Positions 463 through 62,321 of a stretch of 64,000 bases of DNA are shown here, piece by piece. Within the stretch, counting starts at the first letter, position 1. Each line of letters starts with the position of its first letter. A model generated the notes under the pieces. That model did no database searches and was not told where the DNA came from. It saw only the letters and a list, made by a program, of their open reading frames with translations. Made by a program: the position numbers and the translations under genes. Source of the stretch: Mycobacterium sp. UM_WGJ (GTDB lineage: Bacteria > Actinomycetota > Actinomycetes > Mycobacteriales > Mycobacteriaceae); contig NZ_AUWR01000009.1 of assembly GCF_000455125.1 (NCBI RefSeq), positions 1-64,000 on the forward strand. Reading direction: 5' to 3'.

Positions 463-490
463 CTCACCCGTGATGCTATTCTCCGTTTTT

Positions 491-505
491 GAGAATGCCA
501 ATATC
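491..505. promoter_or_regulatory. Island-wide palindromic operator, copy 1
   Basis: GAGAAT-GCC-AATATC, 10 of 12 arm positions matching GAGAAT-N3-ATTCTC. An additional ATTCTC half-site at 478-483 stands exactly 7 bp before it (ATTCTC-N7-GAGAAT). It lies between the divergent ligase and enoyl-CoA hydratase starts, ending 14 bp before the ATG at 520. Confidence 0.5.
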
Positions 506-519
506 TTGAGTGGAGAGCC

Positions 520-1263
520 ATGGGTCAGGACCGTCCGGACGAACTGGGCGTACAACTGGATGACGGCCTGGCCATCATCACCATCGACCGGCCCGAGGCC
601 CGCAACGCCATCGCCCCGGAGACCATGGCGCAACTCGACCGGGCACTGGACAAGGTCTCCGGCGCGCAGGCCCTGGTGATCACCGGCGGCGGCGACCGCG
701 CCTTCGTCTCCGGCGGCGACCTCAAGCAGCTCGCCGCGCTGCGCACCGAGGCCGAGGCATCGGACATGGCCTGGCGGATGCGCACCCTGTGCGATCGGAT
801 CGCCGCCTTCCCGGCACCGGTGATTGCTGCCCTGAACGGCCACGCGTTGGGCGGTGGCGCCGAAGTTGCGGTCGCCGCCGACATCCGGATCGCGGCCGCC
901 GACATCAAGATCGCGTTCAATCAGGTGTCCCTGGCGATCATGCCGGCCTGGGGTGGCGCCGAGCGGCTGGGCAGATTGGTCGGACACAGTCAGGCGTTGC
1001 TGCTGGCCGGCACCGGGACCATGCTGGACGCTTCGGCGGCCGAACGCATCGGCCTGGTCAATCGGGTGGTTCCCCGGGAGTCCTTCGACGCCGAATGGCG
1101 CGCCTTGGCCCGGTCACTGGCCAACCCGTCGGCCGGGGAGATCAAACGGGTGCTCGGTGGCGCAACAGCGGACGAGGCGGTGGCGGCGTTCGCCCGGCTG
1201 TGGGTCGCCGACGAGCACTGGGAGGCCGCGGATCGCCTCCAACAAGGCAGGAAGCAGCGCTAA
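520..1263 (+). CDS. Enoyl-CoA hydratase/isomerase family protein
   Basis: A 247-residue crotonase-fold protein, the usual length for the family. The oxyanion-hole region is ALNGHALGGGAEV (about residues 105-117), and the first catalytic glutamate (equivalent to Glu144 of rat crotonase) is present in GGGAEV. The second acid (Glu164 equivalent, normally in a QPE motif) falls in FNQVSL, where serine replaces glutamate, so it may be an isomerase, a hydrolase or a hydratase with altered chemistry. The ATG at 520 has a GGAG ribosome site. Its stop overlaps the convergent TetR stop by 4 bp. It probably acts in CoA-ester beta-oxidation together with the divergent ligase. Confidence 0.85.
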   Translation: MGQDRPDELGVQLDDGLAIITIDRPEARNAIAPETMAQLDRALDKVSGAQALVITGGGDRAFVSGGDLKQLAALRTEAEASDMAWRMRTLCDRIAAFPAPVIAALNGHALGGGAEVAVAADIRIAAADIKIAFNQVSLAIMPAWGGAERLGRLVGHSQALLLAGTGTMLDASAAERIGLVNRVVPRESFDAEWRALARSLANPSAGEIKRVLGGATADEAVAAFARLWVADEHWEAADRLQQGRKQR

Positions 1264-1913
1264 TGCTCGACGGGCCCCGACACCAGCGCGACGCCCGAAA
1301 GCGGCGCGGACGGTGGCGGGTCGCCCTCGAGCCGGTGCAGCCAGCGCTCGACGAACTCGATGGTCTCGGGATGGCCGAGGGTCATGCCCAGCGCCTCCTG
1401 CTCGATGATCAGCATCCGCGAGGCGCTGGTCATGAGGACCATCAGTACCGTCGGCGGGAACTCCGCGTCGTCGACGCCGTACCGGGCGAACAGCCCGGAC
1501 ACCGCCTGGATCTGTTCGGCGCGCAGCCGCTCGGCGTAATTGGCGATCTCGGCCCGCAAGGCCTCGCGCTCGTTGGCCACGGTAATGAACTGCATGGTCA
1601 ACGCCGTCCATGCCGGATCGGTGTTGAATCGCCACAGCGCCCAGAGCGGCTTCGGCGACGCCAGCACCGCCGCCTGTTCGGCCAATCCCTGATCGCCACG
1701 CCGGCGGAAGATCGCCAGGAACAGGTCATCCATGGTGCGGAAGTAATAGTGCACGAGCTGATGCTTGAGGCCCGCCCGCTCAGCAACGCGACGGGAACTG
1801 ACCGCACCGGCGCCGTCGGTCAGCAGCAGCTCTTCCGCGGCGTCGAGCAACAGGGTCCGGTTCTTCGCGTCCGGGGCACCAATTCTGCGCTGTCCCTTAG
1901 CCGATTCGGGCAT
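1260..1913 (-). CDS. TetR-family transcriptional regulator
   Basis: A 217-residue TetR-type regulator. The N-terminal helix-turn-helix spans roughly residues 20-65: LLLDAAEELLLTDG, then VSSRRVAERAGLKHQLVHYYF, with the family's usual YYF end. The C-terminal ligand domain is divergent, as is normal. It starts 139 bp from the divergent P450 at 2053. Of the three TetR genes here it is the one without its own dedicated operator in sight. It is therefore a candidate, along with the IclR gene at 26020 or an unseen gene, for the factor that reads the island-wide palindrome. That link is inference only. Confidence 0.88.
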   Translation of the reverse strand: MPESAKGQRRIGAPDAKNRTLLLDAAEELLLTDGAGAVSSRRVAERAGLKHQLVHYYFRTMDDLFLAIFRRRGDQGLAEQAAVLASPKPLWALWRFNTDPAWTALTMQFITVANEREALRAEIANYAERLRAEQIQAVSGLFARYGVDDAEFPPTVLMVLMTSASRMLIIEQEALGMTLGHPETIEFVERWLHRLEGDPPPSAPLSGVALVSGPVEH

Positions 1914-2052
1914 ACAGGTCGCTCCGCATCGTTGTCGTCACCTTTACACCTTCGGCGGCCATCGTAGTGGCGCCGCAACCCTTGACCCCCAACCCCGCCC
2001 ATGCTAAGCAGGTGCACAGCATCTGTCAGCCCGTTCTGCAGAGAGGTCCACG

Positions 2053-16750: not shown

Positions 16751-16759
16751 GGGGGCTCC

Positions 16760-17518: not shown

Positions 17519-17535
17519 GATGCTCCTGCCCCGGG

Positions 17536-20668: not shown

Positions 20669-20671
20669 GGT

Positions 20672-49519: not shown

Positions 49520-49547
49520 AGAGCAGCAGGAATCAAGGGAGTTCACG

Positions 49548-50690
49548 ATGACCGTGACAGCCACCGAGCGTAAGCCGGCCGCCGAGCGAATCGCTGTGCG
49601 GTGTGTGGATTCGGACGTTCACCCGGTGCCGCGGCGCGGCGACCTGGTGCAATATCTCCCCGAGCCCTGGCGCAGCAAGTACTTTCTGCCCCGTCGGGTC
49701 GGCGAGCAGATCTACTACGACGCCCCCGACTACGCACACGCCTTCGCCATGCGTGTTGACGCGTTCCCGGCCGATGGCGAATTCCCGGGAAGCGACCCGG
49801 AGTTGGCGTTCAAACAACTCATCATGGAAGCGGGCGCCGACTACGCGATCCTTGAGCCCGCCGCCTACCCGGCCCGCTTCCCCGAAGCACAGCAGGCGAT
49901 GTCGACTGCGCTCAACGACTGGCAGGCCAACCATTGGCTCGACGCCAAGAACAACTGGCATGAGCGCTGGCGCGGCTCGATCTGCGCCGCGATCGAGGAC
50001 CCCGCCGGCGCGGTCGCCGAGATCGAGAAATGGGCCGGGCACCCCTACATGGCGCAGATCCTGATCAAGGCCGAGCCACGGCCCGCGTGGGGCGACCCCA
50101 AGTACGACCCGATCTGGGCGGCGGCCACCAAGCACGACATCACCGTGAGCTGCCACCTGTCCCGCAGCCATCACGAAGAACTGCCGATGCCGCCGGTAGG
50201 AATGCCCAGCTACAACCACGATTTCATGGTCACCTACTCGCTGCTGGCAGCGAACCAGGTGATGAGCCTGGTGTTCGACGGGGTCTTCGACCGGCACCCG
50301 AACCTGCGCATCGTGCTCGTCGAACACGCCTTCACCTGGATCCTGCCGCTGATGTGGCGGATGGACGCCATCTACGCGGCCCGCAAGTCATGGGTGGACA
50401 TCAAGCGCAAGCCCAGTGAATACGTCAAGGAACACATCAAATTCACCACCCAGCCATTGGACTACCCGGAGGATAAGACCGAACTCTCACGTGCCCTGGA
50501 ATGGATGGAGTGCGAGAAGATCCTGCTCTATTCCTCGGACTACCCGCACTGGACCTTCGACGATCCGCGCTGGCTGGTCAAACACCTGCCCAAGGCGGCC
50601 CGGGAAGCGGTGATGTTCAAAAACGGACTGCAGACCTACCACCTTCCCGACACGGTCCCGGCCCTCGAGGGACAGGTGCGGGTGTTCTAG
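49548..50690 (+). CDS. Amidohydrolase-2 (ACMSD-like) family protein
   Basis: A 380-residue metal-dependent hydrolase or decarboxylase: VDSDVHPVPRRGDLVQYLP (DxHP metal motif), SCHLSRSHHEELP, VLVEHAFTWILPLMWRMD, and an intact LLYSSDYPHWTFDDP. It is homologous to the upstream gene (shared LPLMWRMD/TPIIWRMD and YPHW) but retains the catalytic Asp. ATG 49548 with AAGGGAG upstream. A Rieske ferredoxin gene follows with no gap. Together they look like a unit acting on a ring-derived acid. Confidence 0.9.
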   Translation: MTVTATERKPAAERIAVRCVDSDVHPVPRRGDLVQYLPEPWRSKYFLPRRVGEQIYYDAPDYAHAFAMRVDAFPADGEFPGSDPELAFKQLIMEAGADYAILEPAAYPARFPEAQQAMSTALNDWQANHWLDAKNNWHERWRGSICAAIEDPAGAVAEIEKWAGHPYMAQILIKAEPRPAWGDPKYDPIWAAATKHDITVSCHLSRSHHEELPMPPVGMPSYNHDFMVTYSLLAANQVMSLVFDGVFDRHPNLRIVLVEHAFTWILPLMWRMDAIYAARKSWVDIKRKPSEYVKEHIKFTTQPLDYPEDKTELSRALEWMECEKILLYSSDYPHWTFDDPRWLVKHLPKAAREAVMFKNGLQTYHLPDTVPALEGQVRVF

Positions 50691-51083
50691 ATGAGCCACG
50701 ACGAGCAGCGGCCCCGGCTGGCCCAGGGCCGCGAGCACATTGTTGCCACGATCGATGAAATCCCGCCCGGCACGCACAAGCTCGTGCCGATCGGGCATCA
50801 CGGAGTCGGCGTGTACAACATCAATGGGACGTTCTACGCAATCGCGAACTTCTGCCCTCACCAGGGCGGTCCGCTGTGCTCGGGCCGGCTGCGCGGCCGT
50901 ACCGTCGTCGACGAGGAGCGCCCGGGCGACGCCGCCATGGTCCGCGACCTCGAGTACATCTACTGCCCTTGGCATCAATGGGGTTTCGAACTCGCCACCG
51001 GTACGACCGCGGTCAAACCGGAGTGGAGCATCCGCACCTACCCGGTGCGGGTAGTCGGCAACGACGTCCTCGTCCAGGCCTAG
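50691..51083 (+). CDS. Rieske 2Fe-2S protein (ferredoxin-like)
   Basis: A 130-residue single-domain Rieske protein. Ligands are Cys55/His57 in FCPHQGGPLC and Cys92/His95 in YCPWHQWGFEL. The loop between the two pairs is long (34 residues), carrying DEERPGDAAMV, unlike small toluene-type Rieske ferredoxins. The ATG directly follows the amidohydrolase TAG. It may deliver electrons to the Rieske oxygenase at 62889, or serve an oxygenase outside the window. Confidence 0.9.
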   Translation: MSHDEQRPRLAQGREHIVATIDEIPPGTHKLVPIGHHGVGVYNINGTFYAIANFCPHQGGPLCSGRLRGRTVVDEERPGDAAMVRDLEYIYCPWHQWGFELATGTTAVKPEWSIRTYPVRVVGNDVLVQA

Positions 51084-51099
51084 CGCACAGGAGTTTTCG

Positions 51100-51966
51100 G
51101 TGGCCTCTATCGAAGTCAACGCCGGCAACGTTGTCTACGAGATCCTCGGTACCACGGGTGAGCTGATCGTCTTGACCCCCGGTGGGCGATTCTCCAAGGA
51201 GATCCCCGGATTGCGCCCGCTCGCCGACGCTCTCGTCGAAGGCGGGTACCGCGTGCTGCTGTGGGACCGGCCCAACTGCGGGGCCTCCGACGTGCAGTTC
51301 TACGGCCAGTCCGAATCGCACATGCGCGCCGAAACCCTGCACGGACTGTTGACCGCCCTGGGGACTGGACCGGTCATCCTGGCCGGCGGCTCGGGTGGGG
51401 CACGCGACTCGATCCTGACCACCATGCTCTATCCGGAGTTGGTCACCAAGCTGGCCCTGTGGAACATCGTGGGCGGCATCTACGGCACCTTCGTGCTCGG
51501 GTCCTACTACGTGGTGCCCAGCATCCTGGCCGCGCGTGGTGGCGGCCCGGCGGCCCTGCTGGGCGTACGCGAATGGCAGGAGCGGATCGAGGAGAATCCC
51601 AACAACAAACAACGGCTGCTCGACCTGGACGGCGATGCGTTCCTCAAGGTGATGTTGCGCTGGCTCAACGCCTTCGTCTCCAAGCCGGGCCAGACGATTC
51701 CCGGCGTGGACGACGAGATGTTCGACCGGATCACGGTTCCCACACTGATCATCCGCGGCGGCGAGAACGACTGGGACCACCCGAAACGGACCTCACTGGA
51801 GGTCAACTGCCTGATCAAGGGATCCGAGCTGATCGACCCACCCTGGCCCGAAGACGCCTGGGAGCGGGCCGCTGAAGATCGGGCATCGGGAAAAGTCAGT
51901 CACTTCAACATGTTCGACACCTGGGTGCAGGCCGCCCCGGCGATCCTGGAATTTTTGGGCCGCTGA
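51100..51966 (+). CDS. Alpha/beta hydrolase
   Basis: A 288-residue hydrolase: LTPGGRFSKEIPGLRPLADA, WDRPNCGASD, the nucleophile Ser98 in AGGSGGARDS, and TLIIRGGENDWDHPK for the acid. The C-terminal histidine is probably that in KVSHFNMFDTW. The GGSGGA elbow differs from the GxSxGG of the meta-cleavage hydrolases, so a different ester, lactone or C-C substrate is likely. GTG 51100 has CAGGAG 6 bp upstream. It follows the Rieske gene by 16 bp and converges on a hypothetical gene at 51972. Confidence 0.87.
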   Translation: MASIEVNAGNVVYEILGTTGELIVLTPGGRFSKEIPGLRPLADALVEGGYRVLLWDRPNCGASDVQFYGQSESHMRAETLHGLLTALGTGPVILAGGSGGARDSILTTMLYPELVTKLALWNIVGGIYGTFVLGSYYVVPSILAARGGGPAALLGVREWQERIEENPNNKQRLLDLDGDAFLKVMLRWLNAFVSKPGQTIPGVDDEMFDRITVPTLIIRGGENDWDHPKRTSLEVNCLIKGSELIDPPWPEDAWERAAEDRASGKVSHFNMFDTWVQAAPAILEFLGR

Positions 51967-51971
51967 TGCAC

Positions 51972-52442
51972 TCAGCTGGTATGGATGTGAACCTCGCAGT
52001 TCAGCGACGCCTCCAGCGCCGTGTGGATCCGGCTTTCGCCGACCCGCTGCAGATCCGACTCCGCCAACGTCACGTGCACGATGTCCAGACCATCGGGCCC
52101 CGCTGCGCGAGCGATCTCGCCGGACAGTCCCAGCCCGGCCAGCACCCCGTGCACGTCGTCATCGGTGCCCCTGCTGAGGTAGGTCACCACACCTGGCGTC
52201 GGCGCCGTGCCGAAGGCTTTGGCGCACAGCCGCACACCGATATCAATGACGTCCCGTTCGGCTCCGGTGATCAGCAACCGTACGTGTCGCCGGCCCACCG
52301 GCATGGCGGCGATGTCGGCATCGACCACATCGACACCGGCTTGGCCGGCCAGCTCGCGCAGCGTTGCCATTCCCGACATCAGATGCTCGGGCACCAGCTT
52401 CCCGGCCGGGTCGACGTCGAGTCGCACCACCGCTGTTCTCAC
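51972..52442 (-). CDS. Hypothetical protein
   Basis: A 156-residue soluble protein (from GTG 52442: MRTAVVRLDVDPAGKLVPEH), alternating strand and helix, with GRRHVRLLITGAERDVIDIG and a C-terminal SRIHTALEASLNCEVHIHTS. No signal peptide or membrane segment. I do not recognise the family. It is divergent from the NuoF-like gene, with only 29 bp between start codons. An alternative TTG start at 52472 would touch the neighbour's ATG and is less likely. Confidence 0.65.
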   Translation of the reverse strand: MRTAVVRLDVDPAGKLVPEHLMSGMATLRELAGQAGVDVVDADIAAMPVGRRHVRLLITGAERDVIDIGVRLCAKAFGTAPTPGVVTYLSRGTDDDVHGVLAGLGLSGEIARAAGPDGLDIVHVTLAESDLQRVGESRIHTALEASLNCEVHIHTS

Positions 52443-52471
52443 GTCCGCGAGCCTAGTCAAACGAGGTGTCA

Positions 52472-53782
52472 ATGACGACCAACAGCACGGTCACTCCGGA
52501 CGCCAAAGCGATCACTGTGGCCGCCTGGCCGGGCTGCCCGCCGCGACTGCTGCGACTGCAGTCCGGTGTCGAGGGCGCAACGGAATACCAGGCCGGCGGC
52601 TATCGACCGCTGCGCGACCCGGACGAGCTTCTCGCCGAGGTGGAACGCAGCGGTCTGCTCGGCCGCGGCGGCGCGGGATTCCCGCTCGCAGTCAAGCTGC
52701 GTTCGGTGCGCGACGCCGGCCGCCGCGGCCGCGACACCGTCGTGGTGGCCAATGGCGAAGAGGGCGAACCAGCCTCGATCAAGGACCGGTGGCTGCTGCG
52801 CAACCGACCCCATCTGGTACTGGACGGGTTACGGCTGGCCGCGGCTACGGTGGCGGCACGTCGCGCCTACGTCTATGTCTCCGATGCCTGGGCGGCCCGC
52901 AGCGTCGAGAACGCCCTGACCGAGGTCGGCCCGGAAGTCCTTGGCGGGCTGTCGATCCGGGTGGTCACCGTCGACGCGGGCTATGTGGCCGGCGAGGAGA
53001 CTGCGGCGGTGCGGGCCATCAACGGCGGCCCGGCCAAGCCGACGGACAAACCACCTCGCCCCTACCAACAGGGAGTCGGTGCGCTGCCGACCCTGGTCTC
53101 CAATGTCGAAACGCTGGCGAATCTCCCCTATCTGCAACAGCACGGAGCCGAAGCGTTTCGCACGCACGGAACTGCCTTGTCGCCGGGTACCTTCCTGGCC
53201 ACGGTCAGCGGCGGCGGGGTTTCGCCCGTGCTCTACGAGCTGCCGCATGGCGTCCCGATCGCCGAACTGCTGAGCGCGCACGGGATTGCGGCCGAGCAGG
53301 TCCGCGGTGTTCTGATGGGTGGGTATTTCGCCGGTCTGCTCAACCACGAAGCGCTGCGGGTCACCCTCGACCACGAGTCGCTGCGCGCGAGCGGCAGCGG
53401 CCTGGGCTGCGGGGCGATCTGCGTTCTCACCGACGACTGCCCGGTGGCGGTGACGGCCGCGGTATTGGCCTATTTCGGCAGGGAGAACGCCGGGCAGTGT
53501 GGGTCGTGCTTCAACGGCACCGTGGCTATGGCGGCGGTCGCCGAAGCCCTGCGGGATGGAGTCGCGACCACCGAAGACGTGCAGCGGCTGCAACGGTGGG
53601 CCGGTGTGCTGCCCGGGCGCGGCGCCTGCGGCACGCTGGACGGTGCCACCCATGTTGCCGCCAGTCTACTGACCCGGTTTCCGGAGTTGGTGACGCGCCA
53701 CCTCGACGGCGCCTGCGACGTCTGCCGTGGCGGCGCCTTCCGCGCGATGCGTCCCTACCAGGTCGAGGAGGTGACGGCATGA
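52472..53782 (+). CDS. NuoF-like (NADH dehydrogenase 51-kDa/SLBB) flavoprotein
   Basis: A 436-residue protein homologous to the NADH-binding subunit of complex I. It has GLLGRGGAGFPLAVKL (64-71 for GRGGAGFP, FMN/NADH site), NGEEGEPASIKDR (94-106), AGYVAGEETAAV and a C-terminal cluster region. The NuoF CxxCxxC motif appears as CGSCFNG (Cys343, Cys346), so the third cysteine is missing; further cysteines occur in GACGT and CDVC. No other complex I genes are near. With the ferredoxin overlapping its 3' end it is probably an NAD(P)H:ferredoxin oxidoreductase. ATG 52472 with GAGG upstream. Confidence 0.85.
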   Translation: MTTNSTVTPDAKAITVAAWPGCPPRLLRLQSGVEGATEYQAGGYRPLRDPDELLAEVERSGLLGRGGAGFPLAVKLRSVRDAGRRGRDTVVVANGEEGEPASIKDRWLLRNRPHLVLDGLRLAAATVAARRAYVYVSDAWAARSVENALTEVGPEVLGGLSIRVVTVDAGYVAGEETAAVRAINGGPAKPTDKPPRPYQQGVGALPTLVSNVETLANLPYLQQHGAEAFRTHGTALSPGTFLATVSGGGVSPVLYELPHGVPIAELLSAHGIAAEQVRGVLMGGYFAGLLNHEALRVTLDHESLRASGSGLGCGAICVLTDDCPVAVTAAVLAYFGRENAGQCGSCFNGTVAMAAVAEALRDGVATTEDVQRLQRWAGVLPGRGACGTLDGATHVAASLLTRFPELVTRHLDGACDVCRGGAFRAMRPYQVEEVTA

Positions 53783-53988
53783 AGATCCGCCTGGACCGCA
53801 CGCTGTGCGACGGGTTCGGGTTCTGCGCCAAACACGCGCCCAAACATTTTTCGCTGGACGACTGGGGCTATGCGTCCTTGACGGGCGACGGGTCGGTTGA
53901 GAATGCCGACGAGCACGATGTCAGGCGCGCCCTGCTGGACTGCCCGGTGCACGCCATCATCGAAATCACCGGAGAGGTCGACTTGTGA
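53779..53988 (+). CDS. 3Fe-4S-type ferredoxin with unusual Phe at the variable position
   Basis: A 69-residue ferredoxin with Cys10, Cys16 (CDGFGFC) and Cys55 (LDCPVHA). The variable residue is Phe13, which is uncommon for this class as far as I know. It overlaps the NuoF-like gene by 4 bp and the DUF35-thiolase fusion by 4 bp, so it is translationally locked between a flavoprotein reductase and a lyase, not next to a P450. It probably accepts electrons from the NuoF-like protein. Confidence 0.92.
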   Translation: MKIRLDRTLCDGFGFCAKHAPKHFSLDDWGYASLTGDGSVENADEHDVRRALLDCPVHAIIEITGEVDL

Positions 53989-55640
53989 GCGCACCTGGCC
54001 GCCCCCTTCCCGCGGTCACCCCCGAGAACGAATTCTTTTGGTCCGCTGGAGCTGACGGCGTGCTGCGGCTGCAGAATTGTCTCGATTGCGCCGCACTGAT
54101 CCATCCGCCACAACCGGTGTGCCGGTATTGCCGCAGCATGAATATGGGTGTGCGTGACGTGTCTGGCCGGGCCACGCTGGCGGGCTTCACCGTCAACCAC
54201 CGATTCAGCTTGCCCGGTCTGCCGGCGCCCTATGTGGTGGCCCAGGTAGCGATCGACGAAGACCCACGAGTTCGGCTGACCACCACCCTCATCGACTGCG
54301 ACCCCGACCGGCTCGGGCTGGGCCAGCAGGTGGAGGTGGCGTTCGAGAACATCGACGATGTCTGGCTACCGCTGTTTCGGCCGGTGCCCGACAGTGCGGA
54401 GATCAAGCCGCTTCCCGAAGATGAGATCGCGCCCGAAGACTACGCACAGCATGTGCGCCCGATGGTGTCCGCCGACAAGTTCGAGGACAAGGTGGCGATC
54501 ACCGGGGTCGGGGCGTCACGACTGGGCCGTCGGCTGATGGCCGCGCCGCTGGCGCTGACCGTGCAGGCATGCCAGGCGGCCGTCACCGATGCGGGCTTGA
54601 CCTTCGAGGACATCGACGGACTCTCCACGTACCCGGGCTTAGACGTCGCGGGCATGGGCGAGGGCGGGGTGTCGGCGCTGGAGGGCGCGTTGGGGTTCCG
54701 CCCGACCTGGATCAACGGCGGCATGGACACCTTCGGTCCGAGCGGCTCTGTCATTGCCGCGATGATGGCCGTGGCCACCGGGCTGGCCCGGCACGTGTTG
54801 TGTTTCCGAACCGTATGGGAGTCGACCTTCGGCGAGCTGCTGAAGGTAGGCAAAGCCTCACCACCCGGCGGACGGCGTACGAACAGTTGGCAGGTTCCGT
54901 TCGGCGCCACCTCGGCAGCACACACCCTGGCACTCAATGCGCAGCGGCATTTCCACCGCTACGGGACCACCCGCGAGACACTCGGCTGGATCGCGTTGAA
55001 CCAGCGGGCCAATGCCGCACTCAACCCGACCGCGATCTACCGCGATCCGATGGGCATGGAGGACTACCTGTCCGCTCGGATGATCACCACCCCGTTCGGT
55101 CTCTACGACTGCGACGTCCCGTGCGATGGCGCGGTCGCGGTGATCGTGTCGGCCGTCGATGCGGCACGCGACTTGGCCAAGCCGCCGATCCGCGTCGAGG
55201 CGGTCGGCACCCAGATCATCGAGCGAACCGACTGGGACCAGAGCACGCTGACCCACGAACCGCAGGTCCTCGGCCAGTCCGCGCACCTGTGGTCCCGGAC
55301 GTCGTTGCGGCCGGCGGACGTCGACGTCGCCGAACTCTACGACGGGTTCACCTTCAACTGCCTGTCTTGGATTGAGGCACTGGGCTTCTGCGGCATCGGG
55401 GAGGCGAAGAGCTTCTTGGACGGGGGCGTCAACATCGCACGCGACGGGGTGCTGCCGCTGAACACCCACGGTGGTCAGCTCTCGCACGGCCGTACGCACG
55501 GCATGGGACTGATCCACGAGGCGGTCACCCAGCTGCGCGGTGAGGCCGGTGAACGCCAGATCGCCGATGCGCGGGTCGCCGTGGCCAGCAGCGGCGGACT
55601 GACACCGAGTGGGGTCATCTTGCTGCGGACCGACTCGTGA
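53985..55640 (+). CDS. DUF35 (OB-fold, zinc) and thiolase-like (Ltp2-type) fusion, probable retro-aldolase
   Basis: A 551-residue two-domain protein. Residues 1 to about 135 form a DUF35 acyl-CoA-associated domain with zinc-ribbon cysteines 32, 35, 46 and 49 (NCLDC...VCRYC) and an OB fold. From about 168 (VAITGVGASRLGRR) it is a thiolase-like lipid-transfer-protein domain ending GVLPLNTHGGQLSHGRTHG. In sterol catabolism DUF35 proteins (ChsH2) and Ltp2 are separate chains that together split the side chain by retro-aldol cleavage. Here they are one polypeptide. GTG 53985 overlaps the ferredoxin stop by 4 bp. Confidence 0.9.
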   Translation: MSAPGRPLPAVTPENEFFWSAGADGVLRLQNCLDCAALIHPPQPVCRYCRSMNMGVRDVSGRATLAGFTVNHRFSLPGLPAPYVVAQVAIDEDPRVRLTTTLIDCDPDRLGLGQQVEVAFENIDDVWLPLFRPVPDSAEIKPLPEDEIAPEDYAQHVRPMVSADKFEDKVAITGVGASRLGRRLMAAPLALTVQACQAAVTDAGLTFEDIDGLSTYPGLDVAGMGEGGVSALEGALGFRPTWINGGMDTFGPSGSVIAAMMAVATGLARHVLCFRTVWESTFGELLKVGKASPPGGRRTNSWQVPFGATSAAHTLALNAQRHFHRYGTTRETLGWIALNQRANAALNPTAIYRDPMGMEDYLSARMITTPFGLYDCDVPCDGAVAVIVSAVDAARDLAKPPIRVEAVGTQIIERTDWDQSTLTHEPQVLGQSAHLWSRTSLRPADVDVAELYDGFTFNCLSWIEALGFCGIGEAKSFLDGGVNIARDGVLPLNTHGGQLSHGRTHGMGLIHEAVTQLRGEAGERQIADARVAVASSGGLTPSGVILLRTDS

Positions 55641-55654
55641 GGACCGACTCGTGA
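55627..55654. repeat. Perfect 14-bp tandem duplication at a gene junction
   Basis: GGACCGACTCGTGA occurs twice in a row (55627-55640 and 55641-55654). The first copy supplies the stop of the DUF35-thiolase gene. The second supplies the GTG start of the next gene, and the GAGGA formed at the junction makes a ribosome site 7 bp before it. Confidence 0.9.
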
Positions 55655-56532
55655 ACACAACGGTGCGCCCGCGGATGGTCAGTGCCGACGGGGTCCCGAT
55701 GTCGGCACTGGTCGCCGAGGTCCCCGATCCGCGTGCGGTGGTTGTCGCGCTGCACGGTGGTGGGACCACGTCGATCTACTTCGACTGCCCCGGACAGCCC
55801 ACGCTGTCGCTGTTGAGAGCCGGTGCGGCGCTGGGCTACACCGTGATCGCGTTAGATCGTCCGGGCTACGGCAGCTCAGCCCTGTATCCGGAGGCGATGA
55901 CCGAGCCCGAGCAACGCGTCCGGCTGGCCTATCTGGCCGTCGATCGGATCCTGGGCGAACGGGGTCGTGGCGCAGGGCTGTTCGTGCTGGGTCATTCCAA
56001 CGGTTGCGAGCTGGCGGTGCGGATGGCCGCAACCGACCGCGGCGCGGAGCTGCTCGGTCTGGAACTGGCCGGCACCGGACTGCGCTACCAAGACGCCGCG
56101 CGTACCGCATTGAGTTCGGCCGGACCCGGACAGCGGCCCGCCGGTCTGCGCGAACTGCTCTGGGAGCCCGCCGCGCTGTACCCGGAGGCGGTGCTGCGCG
56201 GGATCACCAACGCATCGTCGGGCGCTCCGTATGAGGCCGACATGGTGGCCAGTTGGCCGCGACGGGACTTTCCGGCACTGGCCGCACAGGTTCGGGCGCC
56301 GGTGCGCTTCACCTTCGCCGAACACGAGAAGGTCTGGGAGTCCGGCCCGGCCGCGCAACGCGAGATCCGCGCTATCTTCACCGCCGCAGACAGTTTCACC
56401 AGCAACCACCAGCTCGAGTCGGGTCATAATCTCAGCCTTGGCTTCAGCGCAGCGCAGTACCACCAGTCGGTGCTGTCATTCGTCAACGATTGCGCGACCG
56501 CCATCGTCGCGCGAGACTCGGAGGTCAGCTGA
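55651..56532 (+). CDS. Alpha/beta hydrolase
   Basis: A 293-residue hydrolase: VVVALHGGGTTSIYFDCP (oxyanion), ALDRPGYGSS, nucleophile Ser116 in LGHSNGCE and a His in LESGHNLSLGF. GTG 55651 is chosen because of the duplication-derived GAGGA 7 bp upstream; the frame's ATG at 55609 lies inside the previous gene. It overlaps the next gene by TGATG. It is probably a thioesterase or ester hydrolase acting after retro-aldol cleavage; this is inferred from position only. Confidence 0.85.
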   Translation: MNTTVRPRMVSADGVPMSALVAEVPDPRAVVVALHGGGTTSIYFDCPGQPTLSLLRAGAALGYTVIALDRPGYGSSALYPEAMTEPEQRVRLAYLAVDRILGERGRGAGLFVLGHSNGCELAVRMAATDRGAELLGLELAGTGLRYQDAARTALSSAGPGQRPAGLRELLWEPAALYPEAVLRGITNASSGAPYEADMVASWPRRDFPALAAQVRAPVRFTFAEHEKVWESGPAAQREIRAIFTAADSFTSNHQLESGHNLSLGFSAAQYHQSVLSFVNDCATAIVARDSEVS

Positions 56533-57350
56533 TGCGGGTCGGATTCATCGGGTTGGGCAGCCAGGGCGCGCCGATGGCGCGGCGCATCATCGAGGGCGGC
56601 TACGCCACGACATTGTGGGCGCGAAGAGACGGCACGCTGGAGTCCTTCTCCGACACCGAGGCACGCATCGCCGATTCCCCCGCGAAGTTGGCCGGCCAAA
56701 GCGACCTGGTCTGCCTGTGCGTGGTGGGCGACGCCGATGTCGAGGAAGTGGTCCGGGGCGACAGCGGTGTGCTGGCCGGACTGCAGCCCGGCGGAATCAT
56801 CGCGATTCACAGCACGGTCCATCCCGACACCTGTCGCCGGTTGGCGCAGGACTGTGCCGAACAGCAGGTCTCGGTGATCGATGCTCCGGTCAGCGGCGGC
56901 GGTCCGGCCGCCGCGGCCGGCACCTTGCTGGTGATGGCCGGGGGTGAGTCCGACGTCGTCGAGCGCTGCCGGCCCGTCTTCGAGACCTACGCCGACCCGG
57001 TGGTGCATCTGGGCGAACTGGGCACCGGTCAGATGACCAAGCTGCTCAACAACCTGTTGTTCACCGCTAACCTCGGGACCGCCGCCACCGCGCTGGCTCT
57101 GGGCGAGCAACTGGGCGTCGCCACCGACCGACTCGCCGAGGTGGTGTCCCGGGGCAGCGCGAACAGCTTCGCGCTGAACAGCATCCGGGGGTCGGGCGGC
57201 ACCCTGGACCGGCTGGCGGGGCTGGCAGGAGCCCTGCTGCAGAAGGATGTCCGATTGGTGTCTGATCTGGCCCAGCGGGCGGGGGCAGATCCTTCAGCGG
57301 TGCTCGATGCCGCTGATGCGGCGCTGGCGCTGATGGATCACCCCCGGTGA
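56532..57350 (+). CDS. 3-hydroxyisobutyrate dehydrogenase-like (beta-hydroxyacid dehydrogenase) oxidoreductase
   Basis: A 272-residue beta-hydroxyacid dehydrogenase. The NAD(P) motif is GLGSQG (7-12), the substrate motif DAPVSGGGPAAAAGTL (117-132) and the catalytic lysine Lys170 in GTGQMTKLLNN. Length is slightly below the family's 290-300. Arginine at WARRDG suggests NADP preference. ATG 56532 shares a base with the preceding stop. It may oxidise a hydroxy-acid or reduce an aldehyde released in side-chain cleavage. Confidence 0.9.
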   Translation: MRVGFIGLGSQGAPMARRIIEGGYATTLWARRDGTLESFSDTEARIADSPAKLAGQSDLVCLCVVGDADVEEVVRGDSGVLAGLQPGGIIAIHSTVHPDTCRRLAQDCAEQQVSVIDAPVSGGGPAAAAGTLLVMAGGESDVVERCRPVFETYADPVVHLGELGTGQMTKLLNNLLFTANLGTAATALALGEQLGVATDRLAEVVSRGSANSFALNSIRGSGGTLDRLAGLAGALLQKDVRLVSDLAQRAGADPSAVLDAADAALALMDHPR

Positions 57351-57463
57351 CGCCGGTCTGCGCAGAACCCTTCCGACACGCTGCCGTTTACCTTACAGTA
57401 GCGGTTATAGTCCATCGTCCCAGCGTCGGCTTCGCCTAGCTTCCGGCGCACCGAGGAGGTTCG

Positions 57464-58666
57464 ATGACCAAGGCGGAACTCATCTTCGACCCGTTCTCCG
57501 AAGAGTATTACGAGAACCCCTTCGACATCTATCGGCGCATGCGCGAGGAAGCACCGCTGTACTACAACGCCGAAGAGGACTTCTACGCGCTGACCCGCCA
57601 CGAAGATGTGTCGGCGGCTCTCAAGGACTTCGAGACCTATTCGTCGGCCCGCGGCTGCGATCTCGCGATGGTGCGCTCGGGTGAGGCGCCGCAGAAAATG
57701 ATCATCTTCATGGACCCACCGGATCACCGGCATATGCGCAGCCTGCTCAACAAGGCCTTCACCCCGCGCGCGATCCAGGCCCAGCGCGACACCGTCATCG
57801 AGCAGGTCGAGCGGTTCCTGGGCGCCGTCGACCCCGACGGTTTCGACGTGGTGCAGGACTTCTCCGGCCCGTTCCCGGTAGAGGTCATCACCCGGATGGC
57901 CGGCGTGCCTGATGAGTACCGTCAACAGGTTCGGCACTGGATCGACACCTCGCTGCAGCGCGAGCCGGGGCAGATCGAGGTCAGCGAAGCCGGCATGCAG
58001 GCCACCATCGAGACCGCAACCTACTACTACGGACTGATCCAGGAACGGCGCGCCAACCCGCAGGACGACATGATCAGCAGGCTGATTGCCGCCGAGATGC
58101 CCGGCGAGGACGGCAGCATGCGGCGCCTCGACGATATCGAGATCACCGGATTCGCCTCGCTACTCGGGGCCGCCGGTGCGGAAACCGTCACCAAGCTGGT
58201 CGGCAACGCCGCAGTGATCTTCGCCCGCCAGCCCGACCAGTGGCAGAAGCTCCTCGACGATCGCAGCAAGGTTCCCGCGGCAGTCGAGGAACTGCTGCGC
58301 TACGAGGGCCCGGTGCAGTACAACGTCCGCTACACCCTCAAGGAAGCGCACGTCGCCGGTGGCACCATTCCGGCCGGCAAACCGGTGTTCTTGATCGCCG
58401 CGGCCGCCAACCGGGATCCCGAGGCGTTCACCGATCCCGACACCTTCGACGTCGACCGGGACCAGACCCAGGCGCAACACCTGGGCCTCGGGTATGGGAT
58501 TCACAGCTGCCTGGGGGCAGCGCTGGCCCGGATGGAAAGCGTCATCGCCTTGGAGCGACTGCTGGACTTCATGCCTCGCTATGAGGTGGATTGGGCTGGC
58601 CTGCAACGAGTTCACATGCAGAACGTCTCCGGCTGGAAGAACGTTCCCGTCCGCGTGCTGCGTTAG
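57464..58666 (+). CDS. Cytochrome P450
   Basis: A 400-residue P450 with AGAETVTK in the I-helix (second Thr of the usual TT is Val), EELLRY for ExxR and the heme loop LGYGIHSCLGAALAR with Cys349. The heme-loop phenylalanine of FxxGxxxC is Leu342 here. It is a paralogue of the P450 at 3381 (REEAPLYYNAE, DFYAL). ATG 57464 follows GAGGAGG. The 113-bp gap before it has no island operator that I can see. Its partner ferredoxin starts 8 bp after its stop. Confidence 0.95.
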   Translation: MTKAELIFDPFSEEYYENPFDIYRRMREEAPLYYNAEEDFYALTRHEDVSAALKDFETYSSARGCDLAMVRSGEAPQKMIIFMDPPDHRHMRSLLNKAFTPRAIQAQRDTVIEQVERFLGAVDPDGFDVVQDFSGPFPVEVITRMAGVPDEYRQQVRHWIDTSLQREPGQIEVSEAGMQATIETATYYYGLIQERRANPQDDMISRLIAAEMPGEDGSMRRLDDIEITGFASLLGAAGAETVTKLVGNAAVIFARQPDQWQKLLDDRSKVPAAVEELLRYEGPVQYNVRYTLKEAHVAGGTIPAGKPVFLIAAAANRDPEAFTDPDTFDVDRDQTQAQHLGLGYGIHSCLGAALARMESVIALERLLDFMPRYEVDWAGLQRVHMQNVSGWKNVPVRVLR

Positions 58667-58674
58667 GGGTGTCA

Positions 58675-58884
58675 ATGTCACGCCGACAGGTGGTGGTCGA
58701 TTACGGGTTGTGCGAAGCCAACGCGATCTGTATGGGCGTCAACCCGGAGGTGTTCCACGTCGATGACGACGACAACCTCTTCATTCTCAAACCTGACATC
58801 ACCGCCGAGACCGAACGCGACGTCGCCGAGGCGGTCCGCCGCTGCCCCCGCCAGGCGCTGGCGATCGTCGAGGTCGACGACTAG
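58675..58884 (+). CDS. 3Fe-4S-type ferredoxin (P450 partner)
   Basis: A 69-residue ferredoxin with Cys13, Cys19 (CEANAIC) and Cys57 (RRCPRQA). The variable position is Asn16. The acidic mid-section (HVDDDDNLF) is typical of a protein that docks to a basic P450 face. ATG 58675 is used; longer frames overlap the P450. It lies directly behind the P450 at 57464 and overlaps the convergent DUF1330 gene by 4 bp. Confidence 0.93.
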   Translation: MSRRQVVVDYGLCEANAICMGVNPEVFHVDDDDNLFILKPDITAETERDVAEAVRRCPRQALAIVEVDD

Positions 58885-59183
58885 CGCGCCGGGAATCCCG
58901 ACAGGATCACCGCGTTGCACTCGGCCGCGGCCTGCCGAAGCTTCGCCGCCTCCTGGTAGGCCTCGGAGTGGTACCAGGCGCGGGCGGCGTCGACGGTTTC
59001 GAACTCCAATACCACGGTTTGGTTTCCGTGCCACTGGCCTTCCAGCACCTCATGCTGGGTCTCGACGGCCAGGATCGTGGCGCCGGCCATCGTCGGCCCG
59101 GCAGCCTTACCGTAGGCAACCATGCCCGCGGGGTCCTTGATGGCCTCGGTCAAGATGACATATCCCTTGGGCGCGTTCGCCAT
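58881..59183 (-). CDS. DUF1330-family protein
   Basis: A 100-residue dimeric alpha/beta-barrel-type protein: KGYVILTEAIKDPAGMVAYG, then EVLEGQWHGNQTVVLEFETV and ARAWYHSEAYQEAAKLR, the family's hallmark strings. Its biochemical role is not established; relatives often lie in catabolic clusters and may be small isomerases or ligand binders. ATG 59183 has AGGAGA upstream and shares a base with the stop of the ferredoxin before it, so the two are co-translated with the P450 at 59386. Confidence 0.87.
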   Translation of the reverse strand: MANAPKGYVILTEAIKDPAGMVAYGKAAGPTMAGATILAVETQHEVLEGQWHGNQTVVLEFETVDAARAWYHSEAYQEAAKLRQAAAECNAVILSGFPAR

Positions 59184-59389
59184 TAGCTCTCCTGAGTTTC
59201 GGTGACGTCGTCGATGGCACGTTCTGGGCATTGCTTGATGGCGTCGCGTACCGCGTCTTCGAACTGCGCCGGCACTTCGTCAACGGTGACCTCGGAATAA
59301 CCGTCGTCGTTGATGACGAACACCTGCGGGCAGATCGTGGTGCAGATGCCATGTCCGGCACAGCGATCGGGGTCGACCCAGGCCTTCAT
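59183..59389 (-). CDS. 3Fe-4S-type ferredoxin (P450 partner)
   Basis: A 68-residue ferredoxin with Cys10, Cys16 (CAGHGIC), Cys54 (QCPERA) and an additional Cys20 in TTICPQ. His13 is the variable residue. The acidic C-terminus ends DDVTETQES. ATG 59389 overlaps the P450 stop by 4 bp, so they are a coupled redox pair. It resembles the 44397 ferredoxin in having His at the variable position. Confidence 0.93.
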   Translation of the reverse strand: MKAWVDPDRCAGHGICTTICPQVFVINDDGYSEVTVDEVPAQFEDAVRDAIKQCPERAIDDVTETQES

Positions 59390-60684
59390 CGCGCCGCCCG
59401 ATCGGCCGCGGGGGTGAATTCCAGGTTCAGTTGGATCAGCCCGCGCAGGATGTAGGTCGGGATGTAGTGGAACTGACGCGCCCCCTGCGGGCCGTGCAGC
59501 TCGTCAGAGATCCTGATGTCGGTGGTGCGGTCCAGCAGCCGCTCGATGGCGATGCGGGTTTCGGCGCGGGCCAGCGGCGAGCCGGGGCAGCTGTGGATGC
59601 CGCGGCCGAAGGTGATGTGCTGACGGGCATTCGGGCGGGCAGGGTCGAAGGTGTCCGGGTCGGCGAAGCGGCGCGGATCCCGATTCGCCGCGGCTGCCAG
59701 CACCATCAGCGTGGTGCCGGCCGGGACGTGGACTCCGCCGATCTCGGCATCCACCCGGGAGAGCCGGAAATCGCCCTTGACCGGGGTCTCGAAGCGCAGC
59801 ACCTCCTCGATGAAGTTCGGGATACGGCTGCGGTCCTCACGGAGACGCTGCTGGATGTCGGGCCGCTCCCCGATGATCTTCAGTGCGGAGCCGAGCAGTC
59901 GCACCGTGGTTTCCTGGCCGGCCGAGTAGACGTTGGCGGCGACCTTGGCCACATCCATCGGGTCTGGGACGGAACCGTCGGGGAACGTCGCCTCCGCCAT
60001 GCCGGTCAGCACGTCTCCGCGCGGCGCACGGCGGCGGTCGGCGACGTAGCCGGCGAAGGTGGCGTAGAGGTACTCCAATGGGCTGTGCGCCAACGCCTTT
60101 GCATCGGTGCTGCCGATCCCACCGCCGACGTTGCGGTGCATGTTCTTGACGAAGTCGTCACGGTCCTCATCCGGGACGCCCAGCAGTTCCGCGATGACCA
60201 GCAGGGTGAACGGGGCCGCGAAGCCGCCGATGAATTCGCCGGCGCCGGGCGCGAGGAAATCGTCGAGTACCGCATCGGCGAGCTCCCACATGGCGTCCTC
60301 GTTCTCCTTGAGACGCTTGGGCGTGAGCAGCCGCATCAGCAACGCACGATGGTTGGTGTGCGTCGGAGGATCCAGGGTCGGCAGTTGGTCACTGAACGGC
60401 AGTTCGTCGCGATGCTTGTCGATCAGGCCCGCGACGGTCTCGCCCCCCAGGTCGCCGTCGAGCGGCACCGGGAAGCCGGGGAACGGGCCGGTCACCGCGA
60501 TGCACGACGAGAAGACCTCGGCGTTGCCGGCCACCGCGGTCGCCTCGTCCCAGCCGGTCACCATCGTCACACCGTGGTGCGGTTCGCGGGTTACCGGCGA
60601 GCGTTCCCGCAGCGCGCGCAGATAGGGGTACGGGTCGCTGACCACCGTTTGGTCGGTGAAGAAGTCGATCGTGTCTGGATCCAT
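59386..60684 (-). CDS. Cytochrome P450
   Basis: A 432-residue P450 with SAGQETT (I-helix, about 254-260), EEVLRFETP (ExxR) and FGRGIHSCPGSPLAR with Cys366. It is the counterpart of the P450 at 2053: same length, IDFFTDQ opening, DPPTHT, LLTPKRLKENED. ATG 60684 is chosen; the frame's earlier start at 60720 would place codons across the operator. A perfect island operator is 27 bp upstream. The operon continues with a ferredoxin and a DUF1330 protein. Confidence 0.95.
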   Translation of the reverse strand: MDPDTIDFFTDQTVVSDPYPYLRALRERSPVTREPHHGVTMVTGWDEATAVAGNAEVFSSCIAVTGPFPGFPVPLDGDLGGETVAGLIDKHRDELPFSDQLPTLDPPTHTNHRALLMRLLTPKRLKENEDAMWELADAVLDDFLAPGAGEFIGGFAAPFTLLVIAELLGVPDEDRDDFVKNMHRNVGGGIGSTDAKALAHSPLEYLYATFAGYVADRRRAPRGDVLTGMAEATFPDGSVPDPMDVAKVAANVYSAGQETTVRLLGSALKIIGERPDIQQRLREDRSRIPNFIEEVLRFETPVKGDFRLSRVDAEIGGVHVPAGTTLMVLAAAANRDPRRFADPDTFDPARPNARQHITFGRGIHSCPGSPLARAETRIAIERLLDRTTDIRISDELHGPQGARQFHYIPTYILRGLIQLNLEFTPAADRAAR

Positions 60685-60711: not shown

Positions 60712-60726
60712 GAGAATCACATTCTC
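60712..60726. promoter_or_regulatory. Island-wide operator, copy 8, perfect
   Basis: GAGAAT-CAC-ATTCTC, all 12 arm positions matching, 27 bp before the P450 start at 60684 in the gap after the amidohydrolase stop. Confidence 0.8.
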
Positions 60727-60794
60727 GTAACCGGTGAACAGAATTTCATATCCCGACGGCGCCCGTCAATGTTGTCCAAGCCGCCGGGGCCGAC

Positions 60795-62075
60795 TCAGCT
60801 GTTCGACCGCGCGGCTTCCATCAACGCGTTCGCCTGACGATCGCCATCCTTGTGGTGGCTGAGCGCACGGATCGAGACATCGTGCCCCACGGCAGCCTTC
60901 CGCAGCGCCCCCACGGTGGCCTGCTCGCGGGGAATGTGGCCGAACGGGTCGAATGAGTACCAACGCATCGCGTTCTGGTGGGTCATCTTGTTGATGTCGT
61001 CATCGGAGACGTTGTTGGCGGTCAGCACATCCCACAACTCTTCGGGCGCTCCGGGCCACATCGAGTCACTGTGCGGATAGTCGGCTTCCCAGGCGATGTT
61101 GTCGATACCGATCAGGTGCCGCAGCTGAACACCCACCGGATCGGAGATGAAACAGGTCAGGAAGTGATCCCGGAACACCTCGGAGGGAACCTTCCCGCCG
61201 AAGTCCTGACCGGTCCAGGTCGAATGCATCTCGTAGGTGCGGTCCACGCGCTCCAGGAAGTACGGGATCCACCCGGTGCCGCCCTCGGACAGGGCGATCT
61301 TGAGATCCGGGTACTGCTTGATCGGCCTGGACCACAACAGATCCGCGGCGGCTTGCACGATATTCATCGGCTGCAGGGTGATCATCACGTCCATCGGCGC
61401 ATCGGGCGCGGTGATGGCCAGCTTGCCGGAAGATCCGATGTGCACATTGAGCACCGTGTCGGTGTCGCACAGCGCCCGCCACAGCGGGTCCCAATACGCG
61501 TCGTGGAAACTCGGGTAGCCCATCGCGGCCGGGTTCTCGGTGAACGTCAAGGCGTGCACGCCCTTCTTAGACACCCGCCGCACTTCGTCGGCACACCTCT
61601 GCGCATCCCAGATCACCGGGATCGCCATCGGAATAAAGCGTCCGGGATAGGCCCCGCACCATTCGTCGATGTGCCAGTCGTTATAGGCCTGCACCAGCGC
61701 CACCGAGAAGTCCGCGTCGTCGGTGGCGAAGAGCCGGCCGGCGAAGCCGGGGAACGACGGGAAGCAGATCGATCCCAGAATGCCGCCGGCATTCATGTCC
61801 TTGACCCGCTCGTCGACGTTGTAGCAACCGGGCCGGATCTCGTCGAGGCCCTGCGGTTCCAGCCCGTACTCCTCTTTGGGCCGGCCCGCGACCGCGTTGA
61901 GTGCGACATTGGGGATCACCACGTCACGGAACTGCCACGAGTCAGAACCGTCCGCGTTGTGCACCAGACGCGGCGCGTCATCGAGGTACTTGCGCGGCAG
62001 GTGGTTGGCGAACATGTCCGGTGGTTCCACGGTGTGGTCGTCAACGCTGACCAGAATCATGTCGTCCTTGTTCAT
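60795..62075 (-). CDS. Amidohydrolase-2 (ACMSD-like) family protein
   Basis: A 426-residue member of the family: VDDHTVEPPDMFANHLP (N-terminal metal motif), NVHIGSSG, IALSEGGTGWIPYFLERVD and an intact EADYPHSDSMWP with the catalytic Asp. In this subgroup decarboxylation of ring-derived acids is common. ATG 62075 follows GGAGGA, so the frame's first ATG at 62135 is not needed. It is upstream of, and in the same direction as, the P450-ferredoxin unit, which has its own operator. Confidence 0.9.
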   Translation of the reverse strand: MNKDDMILVSVDDHTVEPPDMFANHLPRKYLDDAPRLVHNADGSDSWQFRDVVIPNVALNAVAGRPKEEYGLEPQGLDEIRPGCYNVDERVKDMNAGGILGSICFPSFPGFAGRLFATDDADFSVALVQAYNDWHIDEWCGAYPGRFIPMAIPVIWDAQRCADEVRRVSKKGVHALTFTENPAAMGYPSFHDAYWDPLWRALCDTDTVLNVHIGSSGKLAITAPDAPMDVMITLQPMNIVQAAADLLWSRPIKQYPDLKIALSEGGTGWIPYFLERVDRTYEMHSTWTGQDFGGKVPSEVFRDHFLTCFISDPVGVQLRHLIGIDNIAWEADYPHSDSMWPGAPEELWDVLTANNVSDDDINKMTHQNAMRWYSFDPFGHIPREQATVGALRKAAVGHDVSIRALSHHKDGDRQANALMEAARSNS

Positions 62076-62263
62076 GGCCGTCCTCCGTTCCGGGTGCGGC
62101 AGCGGCCGGTCCCCTGACGCTTCCGACGTCTCCAATGAAAACTATCTTCCCGCTTTCGGAGAATCAACCTTCGCCGAAGCGCTCGGCGTTGCGCCGCCCA
62201 CGGCACGGCCGGGGCGTAGAGCACGTCTACCCCGCCTCGCGCCGCCTGCGCAAACAGCGAAGT

Positions 62264-62303
62264 ATTGACCAATCGAGTCAAACATGGAAATCTGTTGGTC
62301 AAT
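62264..62303. repeat. 9-bp inverted repeat beside operator copy 9
   Basis: ATTGACCAA (62264-62272) and TTGGTCAAT (62295-62303), a perfect inverted repeat with a 22-bp spacer, ending 3 bp before the operator at 62307. It may be a second regulator's site. The rest of the 263-bp divergent region 62076-62338 has only degenerate operator-like strings (62137-62151, and a GAGAAT half-site at 62159). Confidence 0.6.
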
Positions 62304-62306
62304 TAT

Positions 62307-62321
62307 GAGAATGTGATTCTC
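62307..62321. promoter_or_regulatory. Island-wide operator, copy 9, perfect
   Basis: GAGAAT-GTG-ATTCTC, all 12 arm positions matching and flanked by T and A to give a 17-bp palindrome. It ends 17 bp before the start codon at 62339. Confidence 0.82.

Follow-up and report, generated by a model that had tools for sequence, protein, structure and literature searches.

GAGAAT-N3-ATTCTC, a conserved mycobacterial palindrome, as the probable operator of an autoregulated TetR-family repressor of putative lipid catabolic operons

The palindrome and the operons of the window

The DNA analysed here, referred to below as the window, comprises bases 1-64000 of contig C9 (71,456 bases) of Mycobacterium sp. 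UM_WGJ, probably a Mycolicibacter, whose genome assembly amounts to 4.47 Mb in 116 contigs. It carries an island of putative catabolic operons whose promoter regions contain copies of the palindrome GAGAAT-N3-ATTCTC. The comparisons reported below indicate that a TetR-family repressor encoded at C9:69495-70148, with a paralogue on contig C11, very probably binds this palindrome. The original prediction, made from the window alone, had proposed a single regulon governed by one TetR-type factor unlike KstR.

Seven copies with at most two mismatches were found in the window, compared with a mean of 0.84 and a maximum of 3 after shuffling, none of 100 shuffles reaching seven. Three of them are perfect (48190, 60712 and 62307), one carries a single mismatch (42615) and three carry two (491, 25907 and 48314), bearing out the positions and grading first given for the perfect and one-mismatch copies. 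Five weaker copies had also been proposed: 491, 25907 and 48314 stand, each with two mismatches; 28402 is weak, with three mismatches (a class with 10 sites in the window), and may be real; 42450, with four mismatches (53 window sites in that class), was dropped as an operator, and its right half alone is kept in alignable relatives. All nine proposed copies fall outside gene calls, in agreement with the claim that they are intergenic. Gene coordinates were derived from a simple codon-usage caller rather than a published gene finder, and starts and distances may shift; at 60712 and 48314 alternative start codons in the list of open reading frames (ORFs) would touch or almost touch the site. 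The candidate operators are the following (no strand applies to the palindromes):

491..505, imperfect candidate operator, two mismatches, 14 bp upstream of the enoyl-coenzyme A (CoA) hydratase gene 520-1263 (Pfam ECH_1); no alignable DNA in the 28 compared loci
25907..25921, imperfect candidate operator, two mismatches, between a leftward ring-cleavage operon (from 25880) and a rightward IclR-KstD-like unit (from 25960)
28402..28416, weak candidate operator, three mismatches, upstream of genes 28482-30419
28424..28438, second weak palindrome, following the 28402 copy
42615..42629, candidate operator, one mismatch, between a leftward aldehyde dehydrogenase/CoA-transferase-like/mce operon (start at 179 bp) and a rightward short-chain dehydrogenase/reductase (SDR)/cytochrome P450 (P450) unit (SDR start at 56 bp)
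48190..48204, perfect candidate operator, between a leftward acyl-CoA dehydrogenase-like pair and a rightward amidohydrolase operon
48314..48328, second imperfect candidate operator, two mismatches, in the same gap as 48190, on the amidohydrolase side
60712..60726, perfect candidate operator, 27 bp upstream of a leftward P450 unit
62307..62321, perfect candidate operator, 17 bp upstream of a rightward carboxymuconolactone-decarboxylase-family/Rieske operon and 231 bp from a leftward amidohydrolase

The units flanking these sites, regarded as putative targets, are:

15929..25880, minus strand, putative target operon: HsaD-like hydrolase, MhpA-type hydroxylase, MhpB-type extradiol dioxygenase, KstD-like flavoprotein and further genes
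25960..28371, plus strand, putative target unit: short IclR-type regulator (25960-26721) and second KstD-like flavoprotein (26746-28371)
30444..42435, minus strand, putative target operon: aldehyde dehydrogenase, CoA-transferase-like protein and mce importer set (four proteins pass the TIGR00996 mce cut-off; neither of the other two families reaches its own)
42686..45987, plus strand, putative target unit: two SDRs, a 64-aa ORF and a P450
45996..48162, minus strand, putative target unit: acyl-CoA dehydrogenase-like pair, below specific cut-offs
48431..58884, plus strand, putative target operon or operons: amidohydrolases, NuoF-like flavoprotein, thiolase with a ChsH2-type OB domain, hydroxyisobutyrate-type dehydrogenase and P450; an opposed ORF (51972-52430) lies inside, so more than one unit may be present
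58881..60684, minus strand, putative target unit: P450 (59386-60684) and small ORFs
62339..63998, plus strand, putative target operon running past the window: carboxymuconolactone decarboxylase family protein and Rieske oxygenase

Distribution of the palindrome in the host genome

A genome-wide scan, proposed at the outset as a check that could overturn the idea, placed the motif far above background. Eight perfect and four one-mismatch copies, hereafter the 12 strong sites, were found in the host genome, against one for the reversed-pattern control; with up to two mismatches the figures were 40 and 5. Eight strong sites lie outside the window in which the motif was first noticed, the distribution being five on C9, three on C11 and one each on C8, C24, C88 and C94. 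Judged by their centres, 11 of the 12 are intergenic and less than 300 bp from a start codon (ten at 17-56 bp and the eleventh at 86 bp), with the C24 copy reaching two bases into the preceding gene; intergenic DNA made up only 5-9% of the own-genome sequence inspected. The predicted regulon is not confined to the island: of the 12 strong sites, 7 lie on contigs other than C9. One of these contigs, C88, is contiguous with the island in two relatives (L107 and L109), where the genes of the end of host C9 run directly into those of host C88. The two contigs probably adjoin, and the C88 site thus probably belongs to the same island.

A TetR-family gene as the candidate factor

The regulators of the window had been put forward as the place to look for the cognate factor. 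The best-supported candidate is instead a TetR gene that begins 5.5 kb past the window end, together with its paralogue elsewhere. The two genes (C9:69495-70148 and C11:118162-118812) encode proteins that are 77% identical, both with a TetR_N domain (PF00440; E 4e-7 and 1.6e-7, above the curated cut-off), and each gene is flanked by an upstream and a downstream site. Two TetR genes of the window itself, P0002 (1260-1913) and P0003 (5581-6186), were set aside, their promoters lacking a site at up to two mismatches; they were not profiled across genomes.

Searching the C9 TetR against named genomes returned 396 stretches with relatives, of which the best 80 were kept. All 80 loci are titled Mycobacterium or recently split genera, the nearest relatives being Mycolicibacter heraklionensis, nonchromogenicus and longobardus, and no plasmid gave a match to TetR at E 1e-30. 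A perfect site was found 133-142 bp upstream of the TetR start in 79 of the 80 loci, and a downstream site (at most two mismatches, within 400 bp of TetR) in 69, compared with 2 of 80 for the reversed control on either flank. Taken over all 80 loci (1.58 Mb), there were 223 sites with at most one mismatch and no control match. These loci, together with the genome count and with the footprinting and co-occurrence described next, support the core of the original prediction, namely one palindrome served by one TetR-type factor distinct from KstR. The palindrome is very probably bound by the product of C9:69495-70148 and its C11 paralogue, as far as sequence comparison can tell.

Conservation of the sites in relatives

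Phylogenetic footprinting was carried out on 12 named loci plus 16 stretches of genomes G016 and G022 (28 loci), some of which may be one assembly under two handles (e.g., L108 and L190). The general pattern at aligned sites was that of fixed arms and drifting spacers. Thus, both arms of 60712 are perfect in all 13 aligned loci with the spacer in many forms, the site upstream of TetR (69362) is perfect in 14 of 14, and 62307 is perfect in 11 of 14 and has one mismatch in the remaining three. The other sites could each be aligned in two relatives, and were kept in both: 48190 perfectly, 48314 with two mismatches, 42615 as the identical 15 bases, and 25907 with two and one mismatches. At 28402 and 28424 the arms were kept and the spacers changed in both relatives; because the 28402 arms are retained beside a second palindrome, this weak copy may be real. 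The 28402-28438 segment as a whole consists of two imperfect palindromes 22 bp apart, a possible tandem operator before genes 28482-30419. Gene order from the amidohydrolase through the decarboxylase and Rieske genes to TetR was as in the host in 13 of 15 loci.

Two further relatives, G020 and G034, hold 13 and 12 strong sites, respectively, 11 of them in each genome not inside genes. Several of these sites precede orthologues of host targets, among them the C88 reductase/acyl-CoA ligase pair, TetR and the C24 amidohydrolase. The 48190 site is also perfect at the orthologous gene pair in both genomes, and one-mismatch copies stand upstream of P450 homologues at the counterpart of 60712. The counterpart of 62307, beside the amidohydrolase and Rieske genes, is perfect in G034 and has one mismatch in G020, and in the latter genome a perfect copy occurs at the HsaD-like/IclR pair orthologous to 25907. 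A gene of 642-650 aa lies 220-239 bp past a perfect site in both genomes (L252 of G034 and L259 of G020); it had no counterpart among the host proteins compared.

Co-occurrence of TetR and the palindrome across genomes

In a set of 61 genomes including the host, a TetR orthologue (at least 75% identity) was present in the host and in 28 of the other 36 genomes from the genus, and in none of 24 genomes of other families, which hold 0-3 sites each. The comparison was extended to 198 genomes of the genus, host included, at least 95% complete. The TetR search scored up to 15 candidates per genome, and a parallel search for the IclR-type regulator of the window up to 13; some genomes without a match (9 in the TetR search, 20 in the IclR search) were assigned by subtraction from the matched list. 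The 169 genomes with TetR have a median of 12 sites, and 164 of them have at least seven. The 29 genomes without TetR have a median of two and a maximum of six, and none reaches seven. Among the TetR-less genomes, the three with the highest counts (G019, G186 and G132) hold no perfect site among 15, and 10 of the 12 sites examined lie inside genes. Just 4-5 sites were found in five TetR-bearing genomes (G026, G085, G216, G078 and G189), two of which, G078 and G189, keep the copy upstream of TetR with one mismatch.

Promoter architecture, protein fold and proposed mechanism

Across 50 site-gene pairs of the host, G020 and G034, half of the sites are within 47 bp of the start codon. When 71 distinct TetR promoters were compared, a TANNNT -10-like hexamer fell within the operator in every one, and 62 had another TANNNT at +27/+28. 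The operator would thus overlie core elements of the promoter, a placement in which occupancy suits repression. Many of these 71 promoters also show a degenerate GAGA...TCTC element about 20 bp downstream of the operator start. A regular second operator, about 22 bp downstream, was considered here, but the element coincides with the probable -10 box.

The DNA-binding half of TetR is almost invariant across relatives. A structural model of the protein (mean predicted local distance difference test score, pLDDT, 77.8; predicted template modelling score, pTM, 0.70) has ten helices in a TetR fold, with a long first helix at residues 9-44. There were 178 matches in the PDB at E<=0.001, the best 50 of which are mostly named TetR-type or other transcriptional regulators. 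Among the matches listed, the closest fold is that of FadR, from B. subtilis with stearoyl-CoA (E 7.7e-7) and from Thermus with dodecyl-CoA (E 1.0e-5). This nearness to acyl-CoA-binding repressors makes an acyl-CoA our best guess for the effector, as suggested by the model.

As to the target genes, the MhpA- and MhpB-type enzymes exceed their NCBIfam cut-offs, the HsaD-like hydrolase reaches 131.7 bits against a cut-off of 400, and the nearest solved structure to the KstD-like protein is a 3-oxosteroid 1-dehydrogenase. The nearest solved structure to an acyl-CoA dehydrogenase subunit encoded just beyond the window is Tcur3483, which we take to be a cholesterol-type heteromeric enzyme. Taken together, the gene set would fit the breakdown of CoA esters of a ring- and side-chain-bearing lipid via ring aromatisation and meta-cleavage. 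An assignment as a steroid catabolic island, with orthologues of KshA, KstD and HsaACD, was considered and not reached, with no search aimed at HsaA or HsaC themselves.

Building on the motif, placement, conservation and tie to TetR computed above, we infer binding and repression along the following lines. GAGAAT-N3-ATTCTC would serve as operator for a TetR-family repressor of the genus Mycobacterium that controls its own gene. A dimer seated on the palindrome would cover the promoter core and block transcription both of the TetR gene and of those operons that adjoin about eleven of the strong sites. Between them, the repressed operons would supply an mce importer and the enzymes to degrade a ring-containing, CoA-activated lipid: acyl-CoA ligases and dehydrogenases, hydratases, CoA-transferases, P450s with their redox partners, a Rieske oxygenase, amidohydrolases, and ring enzymes of the KstD-like and MhpA/MhpB types. 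With substrate available, a CoA-thioester intermediate might enter the C-terminal pocket and release the repressor from DNA. We place considerable confidence in this account taken as a whole.

A TetR repressor with a palindromic operator and a catabolic regulon is a well-known kind of system; the present case is spread over most of the genus as sampled. It gives a conserved island one candidate switch, one operator and a list of operons, and what the island degrades becomes directly testable, either as the ligand that frees the repressor or as the carbon source that induces the operons. A broader reading, to which we give about even chances, is that of a third mycobacterial catabolic repressor system, independent of KstR and KstR2, that would sense a ring-containing acyl-CoA. 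It would switch on the mce import and the oxygenation of a polycyclic or terpenoid lipid, the removal of its side chain by a thiolase/OB-fold pair of aldolase-like type, and the aromatisation and meta-cleavage of its rings. Such a system would have been kept by most mycobacteria sampled and be absent from a minority of lineages, and in Mycolicibacter, where it would be present twice, two TetR paralogues whose DNA-binding halves are almost alike would share one operator set across two islands.

Comparison with known systems

By its gene classes, the system could be mistaken for one of the cholesterol regulons, KstR or KstR2, or for the Rv0767c-type system, but it can be set apart from all three. 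KstR, which governs the upper cholesterol pathway, is likewise a TetR repressor acting on many operons through a palindromic operator. The KstR operator is TnnAACnnGTTnnA, a consensus with one exact match in the window, inside a gene, and none in promoters; inexact sites were not sought. The TetR-family FadR proteins of Bacillus and Thermus resemble the present TetR in having the nearest predicted fold and fatty-acid-type catabolic targets, and differ from it in sequence (15-21% identity). The operator and the pathway of these FadR proteins also differ from those described here.

In the report on KstR2 (PMC3068626), this protein is described as the TetR repressor of the cholesterol C/D-ring genes, with the motif AnCAAGnnCTTGnT, 14 bp long with a 2-bp core. 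The resemblance to that description includes a TetR repressor, a short inverted repeat, autoregulation, divergent promoters, an operator tens of bp from the starts and acyl-CoA catabolic targets. However, the palindrome studied here has 15 bp and a 3-bp core and precedes a different gene set. KstR2 appears among the fold matches of the present TetR, at 19% identity. The KstR2 core CAAGnnCTTG has two exact matches in the window, both inside genes and none in promoters; inexact sites were not sought here either.

A third comparison concerns the mycobacterial TetR Rv0767c and its orthologue G155_05115. With a gene order presumed to be Rv0767c-Rv0768, the locus of the Rv0768-type aldehyde dehydrogenase was located in 10 of 11 genomes searched. 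In these ten genomes, no GAGAAT site with at most one mismatch was found within 4 kb of the locus. A different footprint, TGGACA-N2-TGTCC, is common to the ten loci (L223-L232; host C81:7956-8300), between the aldehyde dehydrogenase gene and a divergent TetR-like gene, and the six of the ten divergent TetR-like proteins that were compared had no significant similarity to the present TetR (best E 0.15). PMC6593523 assigns a palindromic 'motif X' to the Rv0767c orthologue; P450, SDR and aldehyde dehydrogenase targets and proposed autoregulation are points of likeness to our system. TGGACA-N2-TGTCC is probably this motif X, judged without sight of its logo, and with the same proviso the GAGAAT and Rv0767c-type systems look like two separate ones. 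In the literature searched, in which a description given only as a logo in a figure could be missed, neither the GAGAAT motif nor this TetR was found described.

Evidence against the proposed regulon and alternative explanations

Several observations weigh against the account given above. The 198 genomes are related and their kinship was ignored, and the co-occurrence test does not amount to 198 independent trials. Three TetR-bearing genomes (G026, G085 and G216) have no copy upstream of TetR at up to two mismatches, and L144 (M. tilburgii), the one exception among the 80 TetR loci, has none either. Some sites are inside genes, namely one of the 12 strong sites of the host (C94:5295), 2 of 13 in G020 and 1 of 12 in G034; among the two-mismatch host sites, 20 of 28 were inspected (3 in the window and 17 elsewhere), 10 being intergenic and 10 inside genes, so that this class is mixed. 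With regard to the pathway, the KstD-like proteins fall under the KstD equivalog cut-offs, the Rieske protein is nearest to carnitine monooxygenase among solved structures, KshA not being the closest, and no gene of the island points to a named substrate. Finally, the effector class depends on fold similarity at 15-21% identity and on a model with a pLDDT of 77.8. It may be added that in G026, G085 and G216 the DNA-binding half of TetR is nearly unchanged despite the absent upstream copy.

The palindrome could in principle have no dedicated regulator and be conserved promoter sequence, a structural element or a site for a nucleoid protein, and the spacer does frequently complete a TANNNT -10-like hexamer. 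Nevertheless, this appears extremely improbable in view of the low counts in TetR-less genomes, the single functional class of the targets and a two-fold symmetry that exceeds any -10 box. It might also be a variant form of an operator already known, that of KstR or KstR2, or of the motif X associated with phytosterol-induced genes. Motif X is reported upstream of 14 operons that include genes for P450, SDR, aldehyde dehydrogenase and TetR proteins (PMC6593523), gene classes similar to ours. Such an identity is very improbable, since the exact matches to the KstR consensus and the KstR2 core in the window are all inside genes, and since the ten Rv0768-type loci carry another footprint, no GAGAAT site at up to one mismatch within 4 kb and, in the six cases compared, dissimilar TetR-like proteins. 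That TetR activates rather than represses, or that the paralogues split the regulon between two ligands, is fairly unlikely. The C9 and C11 proteins differ at 8 of the first 80 residues and at 41 of the next 136, which would allow different ligands with a common operator. However, the distance between a strong site and the nearest start codon is mostly 17-56 bp, a position on the promoter core that fits repression, and most of the TetR-bearing genomes among those listed have a single TetR copy, so a split between paralogues cannot be the general mode.

The remaining alternative is that the IclR-type regulator of the window (25960-26721) is the cognate factor and TetR merely one of its targets or, in a softer form, that both proteins share site 25907. 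The IclR promoter carries this site, perfect in G020 and with two mismatches in G034, and beside the IclR gene of 20 further genomes the best match had no mismatch in 4, one in 3, two in 6, three in 6 and four in 1; a match with at most three mismatches was thus present in 19 of 20, against 1 of 20 for the reversed control. Moreover, IclR is found in 158 of the 198 genomes and never without TetR, co-occurring with the motif almost as well and having a related site at its own promoter, which also counts against assigning the motif to TetR. On the other side, 6 of the 11 genomes that have TetR and no IclR match at E 1e-50 still hold 9-16 sites. Perfect copies were seen at the IclR promoter in only 4 of 20 genomes, whereas 79 of 80 loci have one at the TetR promoter. 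In addition, TetR and its two sites recur in the C11 island, and none of the host's 12 IclR matches is on that contig. A cognate role for IclR is therefore distinctly unlikely, and IclR was discarded as the sole factor. With TetR as the preferred factor, 25907 looks like a conserved, weaker site, at which IclR may bind as well, and the IclR-KstD-like unit like a target.

At the IclR promoter (L281-L300), GGAAAT often replaces GAGAAT in one arm, as it also does at C11:117976, possibly marking a site that is shared or bound with lower affinity; in E. coli, GGAAAT arms occur in IclR boxes. As for the IclR gene itself (25960-26721), its IclR_C match spans just 70 of 174 profile positions and one internal stop is present in several relatives, suggesting that the gene may be decaying or mis-framed.

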